Below are positions 30,967 to 37,900 of a stretch of 64,000 nucleotides of DNA, piece after piece. Origin of the DNA: Xylogone sp. PMI_703 (taxonomy: Eukaryota; Ascomycota; Leotiomycetes); NCBI GenBank assembly GCA_021399445.1, contig JAJTUQ010000005.1:4216001-4280000 (forward strand), read 5' to 3'. Each line of letters begins with the position of its first letter. The stretch's first letter is position 1. Below the pieces are notes generated by a model that saw only the letters and a list, made by a program, of their open reading frames with translations, was not told the DNA's origin and did not search any database. The position numbers and the translations under genes are program-made.

Positions 30967-32484
30967 ATGCTGCGACCGCTCCGAAATCTGGTAGCCAGCG
31001 TCCTACCAGCTGGAATCCTCGACAACAACTCTTACGCCCTCATCACTAGCAATGAAAACTCGTCTCCTGCCCTGAAATCGAACGAAAATGTTTTCTCTCG
31101 TGTCAAACTCTCCGTCCAGAGATTCGGCTTCTTTATCCTGCCCTCGCCCATCCAGAAACGCTTACGCCCTGCTCAATTCAAACCACAACGCTTGTATCCA
31201 ACCTCCTATCTCGATGGCTTGCGAGGCGTGGCCTCATTGATTGTGTTCTTCTGCCACTATACTGAAGGTAATATGGGGTCGTACACGCATTCGTACGGTC
31301 TGCCCAAAGATGCCAAAGTCCACTCATCACCACTACAGCTTCCCTTCCTCCGCGTCGTCTACAGTGGCCGTCCAATGGTACATATCTTCTTCGTGATCTC
31401 AGGCTTTGTTCTCTCCTACAAACCCTTGAAACTCGCACGCGCAAGGAACTGGAGCAGCCTGCAGAATACGCTGTCGTCCTCGGTCTTTCGTCGTGCTATG
31501 CGTCTCTTCATACCAACTACCACCTCGACCTTCATGATAATGCTGCTTATACGCTTTCGATGGATGGGAAAGCCTATGCCTTCATTTTGGGCGCAGTTTT
31601 GGGATTGGATGCATGCTGTCTGGAAGATCACCTTCTCGTGGAAGTGGGATATCACCCAGTTCCTTCCATATGATGTTCATCTGTGGACCATTCCTATTGA
31701 GATGAGCTGCTCGATGCTTCTTTTCGTCACGATCATGGGTATGAGCAGGTGCAAAGTGTATCTTCGTCTGATAATCCTCCTAGGAATCATGTTCTATTGT
31801 CTCAAATGTCAGCATTGGGCGGCCTTCGAATTCCTCGGCGGTATGTTCATTGCAGAAATTGGACTTATCCAGATCGCTCGGGCTGAACGAGATGCCAATA
31901 AAGAAGCAGCAACTGCATCTTCATCTCCGACACCTATCACCACTGAAGTCAAACCAGCAGGTCCATCCCGCGGCTGGACTATTTTCTGGTGGATCAATTT
32001 CGTGATAGCCATGTTCCTGGCTGGCTGGCCCAACCAAGGCGCAAAGGAAACACCGATCATAAAACACCTCGTCCCTATCACCATCGACCCGTACTTTACA
32101 ACTGGGGGTGATTTGGTTTCGTTCCCTTGGTTCGCACTAGGCGCCATTCAGACGGTTTTTGCATGCCAGCAGCTTCCTGCTCTGCAGAGGTTCTTCACCA
32201 CGGGTATTGCACAGTACTTGGCAAATTTATCCTACGCGCTGTACCTGATGCATGGGCCTTGTCTGGATGTCTTTGCACACCGTGTGATGCCGCATGTGTG
32301 GGCACTAGTCGGGGGCGCTGAAGGAGCGGGAATGTTTGCTAAAATGTTTGTTTGGTTCGTGGGATTATGTTGTCTTTCTATCCCTGTCTTCTGGTCGGCA
32401 GATGTCTTTTGGAGAGCGGTGGATACGCCTTCGGTGCAGTTTGCTAAATGGGTGGAAGATTGTTGCATCGTCAAGGAGGATTGA
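30967..32484 (+). CDS. acyltransferase-3 family integral membrane protein
   Basis: Single exon, 505 residues, ATG in a CACC context. The Acyl_transf_3 (PF01757) hallmarks are present: SYLDGLRGVASLIVFFCHYT near residues 78-97, and MVHIFFVISGFVLSYKP around 138-154, followed by RRAMRLFIPT. About ten hydrophobic segments follow, with a soluble Ala/Ser/Thr-rich loop near residue 315 (ANKEAATASSSPTP). Such proteins O-acetylate or otherwise acylate carbohydrates, lipids or secondary metabolites using a membrane-embedded His; the substrate cannot be told from sequence. It has no clustered biosynthetic partner except the distant Ppo gene, with the repeat array between. Confidence 0.9.
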   Translation: MLRPLRNLVASVLPAGILDNNSYALITSNENSSPALKSNENVFSRVKLSVQRFGFFILPSPIQKRLRPAQFKPQRLYPTSYLDGLRGVASLIVFFCHYTEGNMGSYTHSYGLPKDAKVHSSPLQLPFLRVVYSGRPMVHIFFVISGFVLSYKPLKLARARNWSSLQNTLSSSVFRRAMRLFIPTTTSTFMIMLLIRFRWMGKPMPSFWAQFWDWMHAVWKITFSWKWDITQFLPYDVHLWTIPIEMSCSMLLFVTIMGMSRCKVYLRLIILLGIMFYCLKCQHWAAFEFLGGMFIAEIGLIQIARAERDANKEAATASSSPTPITTEVKPAGPSRGWTIFWWINFVIAMFLAGWPNQGAKETPIIKHLVPITIDPYFTTGGDLVSFPWFALGAIQTVFACQQLPALQRFFTTGIAQYLANLSYALYLMHGPCLDVFAHRVMPHVWALVGGAEGAGMFAKMFVWFVGLCCLSIPVFWSADVFWRAVDTPSVQFAKWVEDCCIVKED

Positions 32485-32819
32485 TCAGTGTTAGCTCACC
32501 CGTCCCCTTGCGTCTTTTATTTCTTTTCCTTCTTCTTTGAGGTAGACATGGTTTAAGCATGAGTATGGAGATTCTGTACTATATATTTCCATGTATAATG
32601 GCGTTTTTGGATAGAGAGATTTGTTTGGCTAGCTTTTGGATCTGGATTGCTATGGTTCATATTGATGATGGGATACTTGTGTAACCATCCTTCTCTATAC
32701 ATTTTCAAATTAAAAGTGTGATTTTAAGCTCATTGGCATGTGAATTCATTCAGAAACAGAAGTGCAAAGCAGAGTATAGTCTCTCACGGCAGGTCTTGAA
32801 GAGGAGAAGAGCTTGTAAG
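32485..32819. other. 3' flank of the acyltransferase gene
   Basis: AT-rich 3' untranslated and intergenic sequence leading into the repeat array; no gene. Confidence 0.5.
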
Positions 32820-34628
32820 CGTTGCAAATCTGAGTATTCGAAATCTTCACTATATATCTCGGCGCTAGTAGCACGGATCACAATAGCATCTAGCAGTTAG
32901 AAGAATGGTAACAACTTCTGTTGCGTGTCTGAACGGCAGAAATCGTCACTATATACTCGTCTTGACAAAAAGAACTATTAATAAAGGGATAAAAGAAGAA
33001 AAAGAAACTGAAGAGGTCTAATCCCAGGCAAAAGAGTTCGGGCCATACAGTTATCACTTGTTGCGTACTGTATGCCCTACATCTCCCCTAATGTTCAGTG
33101 CTTTGTGCACTATTAGGATTAGTCCCTTTATCCCACCTCCAGAACAGTAATTGACCTGACGCTCTGCCATGAGAGGCGCTTTTTACTGTTCCTTGTATAT
33201 TACCACCTTCTTTGTACTTATATATCAATGTATAGGCCCGACGAGCAATAGGTACGCTAACCAAGGATGAGGTTAGTCATACTCCCTCCTGTCAGTTACT
33301 TTCTCCGGACTATTGATATGTATCACATCGCTGCACAGCATGCACACACAGATACAAATACGTATAGCCCTCCAATAAGGATGGTTTTACAAATGTTGCG
33401 GATCTGGGTATAAGAAATCGTCACTACCAAGCTCGGCGTCATATTACCCAAAAAGCATCTTTTACGTTGCGTATCTGAGTGGTGAAAGGTACCACTTATA
33501 TTCCTCGGCATGGTATGTTACCTATATGTGAGTGTGGACCCCTTTCCTCTCGAGCACAGAGAAGTATACGATAATGTGATACTTTCCCGTTGCGTATCTG
33601 ATAATTTGAAAACGTCACTATATATCTCGGCGAATCCAGGGGAAGAGAGCTTTCGAAACGTTGCAGGTCTGGGTACGGAAAATCTTCACTATATTTCTCG
33701 GCGTATTCGTTGATTCTTTCGTAAAGGACATGCATGTCTGATTGTTGCAAGAGCCTTTTTTACGTTGCAAATCCAAGAATGGGAAACCGTCACTATATAG
33801 CTCGGCGTTGTATGCATGACACATGATTGGGTCTCTTCTTTTACTATATCAAGAGGTTCAGAAACAGGGAGACATCTTCATGTTGCGTATCTGAGTGTAA
33901 GAATTCATAACTATATATCTCGGCGTAGATCTAACTTCTATATCAATGATTGGCCAGAAAAGAGCTACAGCTCTTGAATCGTTGCGGATCTGAATCTGAA
34001 GAATCTGCACTATAAGTCTCGGCATAGATTTAGACTCTTCCTTGTAGTATAGTCGTGATAGCAAGAGGTTTGCCTTTTATCGTTGCGAGTCTGAGAACTG
34101 GAAATCGTCACTATATCACTCGGCGGAGATTTGAACGATTCCTACATATATGATTCAATAAGAAGGCACATTGTCAAACGTTGCAGATCTGAATATTGAA
34201 TACTTTCACTATACTTCTCGGCGCGGCTGCATACAGGGCCAGATTCCTATCATGATACATATGCATTTAGCTTTAACAAACAAGAACGGTCATCATATCT
34301 CTCGGCGTTCTAACCCCCCATGCATCAGAAGAGAAGAGAGCCTTATTATTCGTTGCGGGTCTGAATATCACAAACCATCACTATATCTCTCGGCACCGAT
34401 ATGTCAACGTATACATGCATCTAAAAGAAACGTTGCGAATCTACACATTAGAAGTCGTCACTATATTTCTCGGCGTACTCTGTGTGCAGATCAAGCTTTG
34501 TCATTGATCGTTGCGTATCTGGTTTTCAAAAATCTTCACTGTATCTCTCGGCGCAGCTGTGAAGCGTTACTATTCGCCATAAATATGAGAACTTAATTTA
34601 TGTTGCGAGTCTGGATGGAGGAATCTAA
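32820..34628 (+). repeat. dispersed array of ~14 conserved 45-nt units plus partial copies; noncoding
   Basis: Units at 32820-32864, 32919-32962 (3' end worn), 33394-33438, 33465-33510, 33588-33632, 33659-33703, 33763-33807, 33881-33925, 33980-34024, 34081-34125, 34179-34223, 34351-34395, 34431-34475 and 34509-34553; a 3' half at 34284-34307, a 5' half at 34601-34628 and a weak one at 33059. Almost all are exactly 45 nt. Consensus by unit position: 1-7 CGTTGCG, 9-14 ATCTGA or GTCTGA, 15-20 variable, 21-26 GAAATC, 28-36 TCACTATAT, 38-45 TCTCGGCG. Intervals of 26-77 bp are unrelated to each other. Unit starts are not spaced by multiples of three, and frames are broken, so the array is not coding. 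In plus-strand RNA, positions 1-5 could pair with 41-45 using G-U pairs. It lies between the 3' ends of the acyltransferase and Ppo genes. Confidence 0.93.
32981..33191 (+). ncRNA. candidate structured RNA block inside the array
   Basis: Several complementary segments nest or follow each other: ATAAAGGGA 32981-32989 with TCCCTTTAT 33123-33131 (9 bp); CTAATCC 33018-33024 with GGATTAG 33116-33122 (7 bp); GGGCCATACAG 33040-33050 with CTGTATGCCC 33068-33077 (one bulged C); AGTGC 33097-33101 with GCACT 33107-33111, extended by CTAAT/ATTAG; and GAACAGTAA 33142-33150 with TTACTGTTC 33183-33191 (9 bp). The result is a closing stem around two hairpins plus a third hairpin outside. The loop of the first hairpin contains TTGCGTA, as in the array units. 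No folding energy was computed. Confidence 0.4.
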
Positions 34629-34970
34629 TGCTACAGAACTTGACAGGACCTAGCTTGTCTTCTTTGATATGGATATGTAACTGGCGAACTATCAGTGGGG
34701 TGCATATTATTTACGATATGAACTATATAGGTCAGAATTTTGGAGAAACAAAAAAGGAGAAGTTAAAATGAAGCCATGAATTTGGTTACCTGATTCTCTT
34801 TCTAACTCTATGACTAATGCTAATCCTACGAATTTGCGTATGATATCCAAAGGCACATATATGCGTTATGCTATAACACTAACTTCCACGGAAGTCTCCT
34901 CAAAACGTTACCAAAAGTAAATTCCTTCTTGGTTCTCATCAAATAGATATACTCCTGTATGCTTCACAAA
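34629..34970. other. 3' flank of the Ppo gene
   Basis: AT-rich sequence between the end of the array and the stop codon of the Ppo gene; presumably the Ppo 3' untranslated region. No further array unit is seen. Confidence 0.5.
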
Positions 34971-37900
34971 TCATTCCTCATCCCACCATAACTTCATGCT
35001 CGTCGGGAATGGGAAATAACTCCTCTGGTCCGGCGTCATATACAGAACACTTCCAGGGATAGGTCCTGGGATCTTTTTGAGATCTCCCGGATTCTCTCCA
35101 TACGAACTGGTCGCCTTCCTCAAATTCTTCAAACCAAATACAACCTTGAACATGGTCGTCATGGATAGCTTGCTCGCGTCCATACCAGCACATTGGTGTG
35201 GACCGAGACCATATGTCAAGTAGTTCTCCATTGGGCGGTCTAGACGTACAGATAGGGGATCAGGAAAGACCGCTGGATCAATGGAGGCTTGCATTAGGTT
35301 TGGGAAAACACGTCGACCTGTGGGAATTTCAATGGTAGCTTCACCATCTTGGATAGTAATAGGTCCTTGTGTAGGCTCTGAGGGCAAGTGGTCTCTGTAT
35401 AGGCCGGTCGTGGCGCCCAGACGGGCTCCTTCTAGGAAGCTTTCGTGGTATTAGTTGAGGTTATCACTTGATACAGACATGGGACTTACTATCTCAGAAT
35501 TTGCTCATCTGCCTCTGGGGTATCTTGATGCGCTAGCTCATACAATTTAGGGATGTACTCAGGGGCATTGGTAAGATAATAGTCTGCCGATTGCACGAAA
35601 AGCTGAGACTGATTTGCAACACCCGCAACAGCGGTTGGAAGTCTGCGAAAACATCAACATCAGGATATAGGAGCCTTTTGTATTATAATAGGGAATTCTT
35701 ACATATTTGTCCATACAATTTCCTTTATAGGTAGTTTGCTGTTTAAGAATCTTTGGATCATATGTGTACCGTAGTCGGTTAAAGGGCCTGTCTGTTGCGG
35801 TTTTGTGGTAAAGTATGCAATGATTCCTGTTGCTGCAACGGCCTCTACATTTTGTTGTAGGAGTTCCCCAAGCTGTTGTGCTAGCACTCTTGCAGTCGTG
35901 TTCACTTGGAATGCCTTGGCAATATCGGCATTGAAGAAGATAGCGATGAAAATAATACAGAATATCTGATACATCTCTTGCTCAGTGTATTTTCCTTTCG
36001 GAAAATCTTCTGTCTTGATAGGCAGGCCGAATACTGAAGCAGAAAAGCGAGCGCTGACAAGATTAGCTACATCACGAACGATGTCAACTTCGTAAGATTT
36101 TGTGCCAGGAGTTTTAAACTTATATTTGTTGATGAGAGCGTTTGTAGTGATGGAGAAGAATTTCCTAACTTCTGCATCCCACGGCTTAGGATAGAGAGCT
36201 TTCATGACTATAGTACGAGAGGAAGCATTGGCAGGGAGATCTCCGGATAAACAGAAATTGACGCCATATGTTTTCTTCGGTTGAGATGCTAAGTATTCAA
36301 TAGCCTTTCCCCAAGTAACTTTGAAACTTTCTTTGTCTTCAATGACTCTTTTGCAAGCTGCAAAGCTGTTTATGAAGATAAGAGGCTGGGTAGGTGTCGG
36401 CCTCTCCCATGAATACTGGTCGGCTCGACCGAGTGACTGAAGGATAGCTCGATTCTCCGAGGGAATGACAAATGGGAAATGGACATAGACGGAGTTGTTG
36501 TCAAAGTTGTTCGGGAGTGCACGTAGGAATAGCTTGTACATGACGGCTCCATCATCGACGGTAACATCATATTGGACTTCATTGTAACTATGTAACTTGT
36601 TAGCAACTTCAGAAAGAAAAATAGGACGGTGGTACAAAACCCCCAAGCCGTGAGATTCTTCGGCGTGTAATCAACTGTGTAGAAACGATCGCCCCTAACT
36701 AGAGCAACGGCGTCGGATAAGATAGCATATGAGGTTGTGAAATTTACACAGAGTCCAGAGCCCGGAGACATGGGTGGTTTTGCTTTCTCAACAACAAGGC
36801 CGGGGTACAACTCCACGAAATCCGGTGAATCATACAAATCTCTCAATTTTTGAGCAACGGCTGGGTCTGGGTTAATGTCTTCGAAAGTGGCATGTTTACT
36901 GAGTCCTGAAAATTCACGGAACTCGTTGAGGGTCGCCATATTCCATGCTCGAGCTTGAATGATACCTAACATTTCGACGGATCTAAGAATCTTCGGTACT
37001 CTATTGGCGCCGAATGAACCAGCAACATCTTCAACTGAACTTATTAGAAGCTCTGCTACGGCGTTATCATCCAAGGTACCGTCAGGATTACGTTGAAGGC
37101 TAGCGAATGGACGCTGCAGAGGATCTTCAGAAAGTGATTGTTCGAATTCATTGAGTGTGCCAAGAAGTTCCCGTAGAGAAACGTCTTCTGGATTTCTTCC
37201 GGGGAATAAATTGGCATACTCGTCCTGAGTCCACTTTTCATCCCTTTCAGAGATAGCTGAGTGCCATCTATAAACTAGACTGCGTATTAGTGATTGGAGA
37301 TCATAGCAGATTAAGTATAGCTTACTTAGATTGAACTCTGCAGAGACTTGATTTCCAAGTCCCTCTGGAGCTGGAGTATTGAAAAGCGTCTTTCCGTCTC
37401 CACTGCGAGGATCTAGATCCCATTGTGTGCCCACTCGATTTAGACTTAATATTGTTCTCACGTAATCCTTGAGGATTATATTTGCATATAGACCGCAAGT
37501 CACAAGACGTCCGGTCTGGAATAGATCGTTGTCGTATTTGTCCCAGGCTTCCTGGCCTGCGTCGTCTCTTGGCTTGGTGAAACGGCCATTTTCATTGATC
37601 CTGATATATAATCAGAGCAGTGATAGAGTAGGCAACGAAGGTTAAATCTTACATGGCTAGCTGAGTGACGACGTAATTGTGGAATCGGTTAAACATGATT
37701 AAGAAAGCACCAACCCCTGGAGGAAATCCCAAGATTCTCTTCGATGAGAAAGAGTCCGGCTTCAGTCTACCATCCTTGAATGTGCGCATGGCATCTTGCT
37801 CCTGCTGATTAGTTCCATAAAGCGGAGACAAATCCAGATAGCTACTAGCCATTGAGATTGTGTAGTCATCATGGCTCTATCCCTATCAGTATCGCATAGC

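Follow-up and report, generated by a model that had tools for sequence, protein, structure and literature searches.

Between two convergent genes of the leotiomycete Xylogone sp. PMI_703, a unit of about 45 nt recurs more than a dozen times, its letters kept while the DNA that separates the copies varies. The question raised by this locus is what acts on such a unit. A preliminary description of the window, that is, of the whole 64,000-nt stretch analyzed here, which is part of contig C21 in a genome of 50.13 Mb and 25 contigs, offered structured small RNAs, long-footprint protein-binding sites, and worn transposon termini as candidate explanations. The present analysis delimits the array, follows its relatives through the genome, and weighs these readings against one another.

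The window array and its relatives in the genome

The plus strand of the window carries, within 32820-34628, 14 near-full units, here called type I, together with two halves. Thirteen copies are 45 nt long and one is 46 nt. A weight matrix trained on 12 of the thirteen 45-nt copies, with the unit at 34179 held out, scores all thirteen at 36-63 bits, while its top scores in the window outside 32.7-34.7 kb are 8.6 bits on the plus strand and 1.8 bits on the minus strand. The coordinates and scores thus bear out the earlier count of fourteen near-full units plus halves, nearly always of 45 nt. The features are as follows, with scores from the window matrix unless otherwise stated.

32820..32864, + strand, type I unit 1, 45 nt, 63.3 bits
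32919..32963, + strand, type I unit 2, 3' block degraded, 35.9 bits
33029..33195, no strand assigned, dispersed MITE-like repeat within the array but not part of it, at least 38 copies elsewhere in the genome
33394..33438, + strand, type I unit 3, 55.2 bits
33465..33510, + strand, type I unit 4, 46 nt (one extra base), read from the sequence, missed by the ungapped matrix
33588..33632, + strand, type I unit 5, 60.2 bits
33659..33703, + strand, type I unit 6, 58.1 bits
33763..33807, + strand, type I unit 7, 55.7 bits
33881..33925, + strand, type I unit 8, 56.2 bits
33980..34024, + strand, type I unit 9, 51.0 bits
34081..34125, + strand, type I unit 10, 60.1 bits
34179..34223, + strand, type I unit 11, 45.8 bits, outside the matrix training set
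34285..34307, + strand, half unit (3' half), read from the sequence, repeat family D4
34351..34395, + strand, type I unit 12, 57.8 bits
34431..34475, + strand, type I unit 13, 57.1 bits
34509..34553, + strand, type I unit 14, 56.8 bits
about 34601..34620, + strand, half unit (5' half), 12.2 bits with the window matrix and 17.3 bits with the refined genome-wide matrix

The gaps of 26-77 bp given previously are correct provided that unit 4, of 46 nt, and the half unit at 34285 are taken into account, the one exception being the 430-bp interval 32964-33393, which contains the separate dispersed repeat; copies of that repeat elsewhere are 77-89% identical. The unit at 32919 and the 46-nt unit are absent from the list obtained with the refined genome-wide matrix, and such units must therefore be undercounted elsewhere as well. 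A satellite or other tandem repeat can be rejected, since the spacing is not conserved (neighboring listed units of 33588-34553 lie 71-172 bp apart, start to start), the spacers drift, and Tandem Repeats Finder, at its default score, lists no array in 32-35 kb.

The array is, as described before, noncoding and placed between convergent genes. On one side an acyltransferase frame ends at 32484; on the other lies a gene on the minus strand that matches haem-peroxidase domains and whose last exon, P450-like in our own reading, is open to a stop codon at 34971-34973. One neighboring frame found no match in the PDB, and scans for sigma-70-type promoters and terminators, using models not designed for fungi, stayed near the shuffled level.

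The unit is not confined to the window. Pattern and DNA searches of this genome, along the lines proposed at the outset, place type I at about 31 loci among the matches listed, on contigs C1, C12, C19, C20, C21, and C22; further loci on the small contigs may lie beyond these matches. Specifically, a 35-place head pattern with up to three mismatches has 133 matches in the genome and none in the reversed control, a looser head pattern 177 versus 1, and a tail pattern 254 versus 28. A DNA search with another array returned 15 loci, among which C12:6615083 was the sole one absent from the other searches. Twenty-six arrays were read, yielding 220 units compared with 0 in the reversed control of the same 179,323 bases; each has 3-18 sites over 0.2-2.8 kb, with ordinary genes adjoining those inspected. 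Seven of the 26 were taken as tight cuts, so that their unit counts are lower bounds, and about five further loci lie at C1:4647437, C12:120225, C12:6615083-6619011, C19:2654697, and C21:2040214. A bacterial or viral origin was rejected: viral contigs hold no exact match of the head pattern, and the single matches of an 18-place tail pattern in 14 stretches of bacterial and archaeal genomes were judged to be chance. Word searches of the open-access literature returned nothing on this element, a weak basis for calling the array undescribed, and the titles among the matches listed for short unit strings were all unrelated.

The type I consensus, from 177 units, is CGTTGCGNATCTGRNNNNNNRAAATCNTCACTATAWNTCTCGGCR, which amounts to about 50 bits. 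In a set of 203 units, the 220 minus 17 that score below 35 bits, conserved edges extend beyond the 45 nt, with T-T-T ahead of the unit and a pyrimidine behind it. A sub-type, in which GCGCTATA or ACGCTATA replaces TCACTATA and positions 28 and 30 co-vary, is scattered across many arrays. The head of type I, GTTGCRNRTCTGA, is shared by a second unit, type II (TTTTGTTGCAYGTCTGAANGTTTGCTCGGAAACGTGCAT), within which there is an inverted repeat. The 24 genome matches of the type II pattern (0 reversed) all fall within three arrays on C22, as do all 52 matches of a DNA search with one of these arrays. Weak type II-like traces were seen by eye at C12:88350-88620, and ATTGG motifs occur in the spacers of the type II arrays.

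Constraint on the unit and growth of the arrays

A neutral duplicate is expected to lose core and spacer letters equally. In five pairs of duplicated segments, counted on realigned sub-segments and only at columns labeled alike in both copies, identity is 208/216 (96%) in the core, 117/144 (81%) at variable positions within the unit, and 322/439 (73%) in the spacers (core versus spacer, p 1.8e-14; core versus variable, p 5e-6; variable versus spacer, p 0.06). The pairs were picked for spacers that can still be aligned and so do not represent spacers in general. One pair involves the window segment with units 9 and 10, related to C12:4817391-4817580, and its spacers are identical at 51 of 94 positions. 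That the core was kept while the spacers diverged points to purifying selection on the core, and supports the preliminary claim that selection acts on the unit rather than on the spacers. The companion claim, that the spacers are unrelated, stands for most arrays but fails for some inter-array duplicates, whose spacers keep the 73% identity given above.

The arrays also bear signs of exchange. Although a nearest relative within the same array is found for 43 of 203 units, compared with 8.8 expected, the remaining 160 are closest to a unit of a different array; units of different arrays agree at variable positions much beyond the level reached with shuffled columns, and partly similar flanks accompany the 17 closest inter-array unit pairs. 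The likeness within arrays, together with the relatives and flanks found between them, suggests that arrays grow by local duplication and by the copying of pieces between loci. Two facing units separated by a 12-base middle, moreover, form a palindrome around CAGTACTAGA(A/T)A that is present at three loci; a fourth carries a diverged copy.

C12:4816380-4816481, facing-unit palindrome
C21:1386203-1386304, facing-unit palindrome
C21:1760370-1760471, facing-unit palindrome
C20:5349200-5349292, facing-unit palindrome, diverged copy

Such exchange raises the alternative that the units have no function, and that unit-sized gene conversion keeps the copies alike while the spacers drift. Sequence does move between arrays, as the 160 units with a nearest relative elsewhere indicate, and the palindromes at C12:4816380 and C21:1760370 have arms that are 98% identical within each locus and different between loci, as conversion would produce. 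Conversion should, however, homogenize the variable positions to the same degree as the core, whereas the duplicates keep the two at 81% and 96% (the p 5e-6 above), and we regard this explanation as quite improbable.

A mobile element would likewise be expected to copy array pieces between loci. In that case the arrays would serve as transposase-binding repeats, internal or subterminal, within non-autonomous elements of one family with worn or unrecognized ends. Several observations fit: distant loci share array pieces with no shared flanks found in the stretches compared, some arrays are divergent (for example, nine minus followed by nine plus units at C21:1441044-1443849), and the facing-unit palindrome with its 12-base middle recurs as described. 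However, a masked all-against-all comparison of 19 unit-masked segments found no terminal inverted repeats and no common ends or flanks save a few spacers, the MITE, and the type II repeats of C22 and C12:88 kb, although ends shorter than about 25 bp could escape it, and most arrays have no spacers in common. Matches to transposase or reverse transcriptase are likewise absent from the 20 frames that flank 11 array loci, eight of which match nothing, and transposase from the 10 frames of the window. The flanking frames include Sec62, a FAD oxidoreductase, GINS Psf2, a tRNA-ribosyltransferase, Urb2, a fatty-acid hydroxylase, and a WD40 protein, among which no common function was seen. Per-array core identity is 0.89-1.00 (all 220 units, 26 arrays), a range in which no spread of ages is visible, although it is biased upward in that units found by matrix omit badly decayed ones. 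The lack of common ends, common flanks, and transposase in these sets disfavors worn transposon termini, and a mobile origin in this broader form seems to us unlikely.

A single mutated 5.8S/ITS2/LSU relic is present at C21:3181179. Judged by eye, it has numerous apparent C-to-T and G-to-A changes of the kind expected from repeat-induced point mutation, and its ITS2 appears Leotiomycetes/Helotiales-like.

The array family is thus real, widespread, constrained, and noncoding. The combination of a conserved site with free spacers, which clustered long-footprint binding sites require, is what the counts from duplicated segments provide.

Proposed recognition of the unit

Repeated units with unrelated spacers recall polycistronic small-RNA clusters, and the arrays might accordingly encode small RNAs, or precursors of them, in clusters. 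Facing units could form hairpins, and the inverted repeat of the type II unit does fold (z -1.8 to -2.9, 3 units). Type I, however, folds no better than its shuffles (z +0.2 to +1.3, 6 units), RNAalifold gives no pair from 13 units, and stacked covariation is absent from both a 134-unit set, from which units below 35 bits were also excluded, and a set of 164 non-redundant units. In the larger set, 15 column pairs exceed z 5 with mutual information >0.05; 12 of these lie within 3 positions of each other and three within 4-8, with none of the pairs more than 8 positions apart passing. The 134-unit set contains isolated longer-range dependencies (3-34, 8-28) and a weak pairing excess at 8-37, but no stack. 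The Rfam search that had been suggested, run over 32400-35000, matched no family, its single hit having an E of 6.5, and no tRNA was found in the window. A known RNA family or a type I RNA fold was rejected on these grounds, structured small RNAs are disfavored, and we hold the small-RNA reading in any form to be very improbable. The short-range dependencies, the lack of a fold and of an Rfam match, and the use of both strands point to recognition of DNA rather than RNA, although an RNA motif read linearly would also give short-range dependencies only.

How the units are placed bears on the same question. The array was originally described as unidirectional, which holds for the window, where every unit is on the plus strand, but across the genome only 15 of 26 arrays are one-stranded. 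Among 215 units scoring above 25 bits, the strand switches at 18 of 189 neighboring pairs. None of the 165 same-strand gaps is shorter than 14 bp, and the five gaps below this length among all 189 belong to facing units; when units are placed at random, about 30 of 189 gaps are this short, and the lowest of 2000 trials still has 17. For facing (tail-to-tail) units the gap can shrink to 11-13 bp, with a further pair at C20:5349200, one unit of which is degraded and below the cut-off, only 3 bp apart, while head-to-head pairs are at least 22 bp apart. Such strand-dependent minimum gaps are what a rigid footprint with a longer reach beyond the head would produce.

The main peaks of the start-to-start distances fall near 72 and 90, and lesser ones near 60, 80, and 100. 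After strict de-duplication (96 pairs) the favored period is 9.7-9.8 bp, its strength matched by 4 of 3000 smoothed nulls within a period band picked after the distances had been seen. Stricter removal of near-duplicates weakens the signal (nR2 from about 14 to 8.2), the period falls short of 10.5, and the half of the data from C1 and C12 (52 pairs) peaks at 15.15 instead. Because it depends on the filter, departs from the DNA repeat, and shifts in C1 and C12, the helical phasing of units at about 10 bp is modest and only suggestive.

Among the explanations originally offered, long-footprint protein-binding sites fit best, given the short-range dependencies, the use of both strands, the minimum spacing, and the weak helical phasing. 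Type I units are, as far as their sequence can tell, probably bound by protein. On balance we lean towards reading the arrays as clusters of composite sites at which a sequence-specific DNA-binding protein, or one of a few paralogues, would cover about 50 bp. Together these sites would make up a chromatin- or chromosome-organizing element; the organizing function is itself a guess. In such a model the protein would contact five blocks, CGTTGC, TCT, AAATC, CACTATA, and CTCGGC, with the letters between them largely free. Several copies would sit side by side, at least 14 bp apart on the same strand, and build a protein–DNA assembly; this may serve in boundary formation, nucleation, or pairing, and not as a single gene's promoter.

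Candidate binders were also considered. Eight tandem C2H2 fingers with a 28-residue period are encoded at C21:1858468-1859118 (the best 150 of 230 candidates were scored), the other C2H2 loci among the matches listed having one or two fingers. The site of this protein, predicted with a simplified recognition code, is G-rich and scores -3.78 on the 203 units versus -1.15 on shuffled units; this protein is not supported as a binder of type I, its predicted site fitting the units worse than shuffled letters do. The window array and the DNA flanking it hold no match, with up to one mismatch, to either the TFIIIC B-box (GGTTCGANTCC) or the CENP-B box (TTCGNNNNANNCGGG), and for the window array a TFIIIC boundary cluster and a CENP-B box array were both rejected on this basis.

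The mating-type locus and comparison with known systems

The type II arrays occupy three stretches of contig C22.

C22:1363874-1365250, type II array
C22:1432559-1433750, type II array
C22:1444513-1446101, type II array

Between them, at C22:1406125-1406517, lies the sole match in the genome to the MAT alpha-box, the one family that was searched; the link to mating type had been guessed beforehand. The arrays lie at about -41, +26, and +38 kb from the alpha-box gene and bracket 82 kb of the 50.13 Mb (0.16%). As one locus in one genome, the association is a lead, and it may reflect the build-up of repeats where recombination is low. A study of the mating-type loci of a helotialean fungus (PMC9225152) does not use the word "repeat" in its main text. 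A speculative but possible extension of the binding-site model is that types I and II form one chromosome-organizing family of sites of about 50 bp with paralogous binders, type I acting at some thirty loci while type II may mark, insulate, or pair the mating-type region. The type II arrays around this locus suggest a specific place to look.

Arrays of this kind recall several known systems. DNA transposons such as En/Spm and Galileo carry subterminal repeat arrays in which, as in the candidate sites described here, a protein-binding unit recurs in both direct and inverted orientation; in the loci and frames read here, in contrast, neither common ends nor a transposase nor nearly identical copies of a whole array were seen. 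In fission yeast, clusters of TFIIIC B-boxes bound the silent mating-type region. The likeness lies in site clusters around a mating-type region and extends to type II only, and there are differences: the window array and its flanks are without a B-box, and the type II arrays stand 26-41 kb from the mating gene. The meiotic pairing centers of Caenorhabditis, where arrays of a chromosome-specific motif of about 12 bp are bound by the HIM-8/ZIM zinc fingers, are similar in that dispersed motif arrays occur at a limited number of chromosomal sites. Their motif is, however, short and specific to a chromosome, whereas type I spans six contigs.

Finally, the Su(Hw) array of the Drosophila gypsy element is a cluster of insulator sites in which, as here, conserved site copies of tens of base pairs are separated by short, unrelated spacers and form one acting block. 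The present arrays differ in numbering about thirty in the genome, in belonging to a fungus, in having a longer unit, and in being known from sequence alone. Long, conserved noncoding DNA sites in dispersed arrays appear to be best known from animals, as insulators and pairing centers. A fungal case with about thirty arrays and measurable constraint would provide a small-genome model for how such arrays function and spread, and is also a clear case in which the evolution of unit and spacer can be compared inside one genome.
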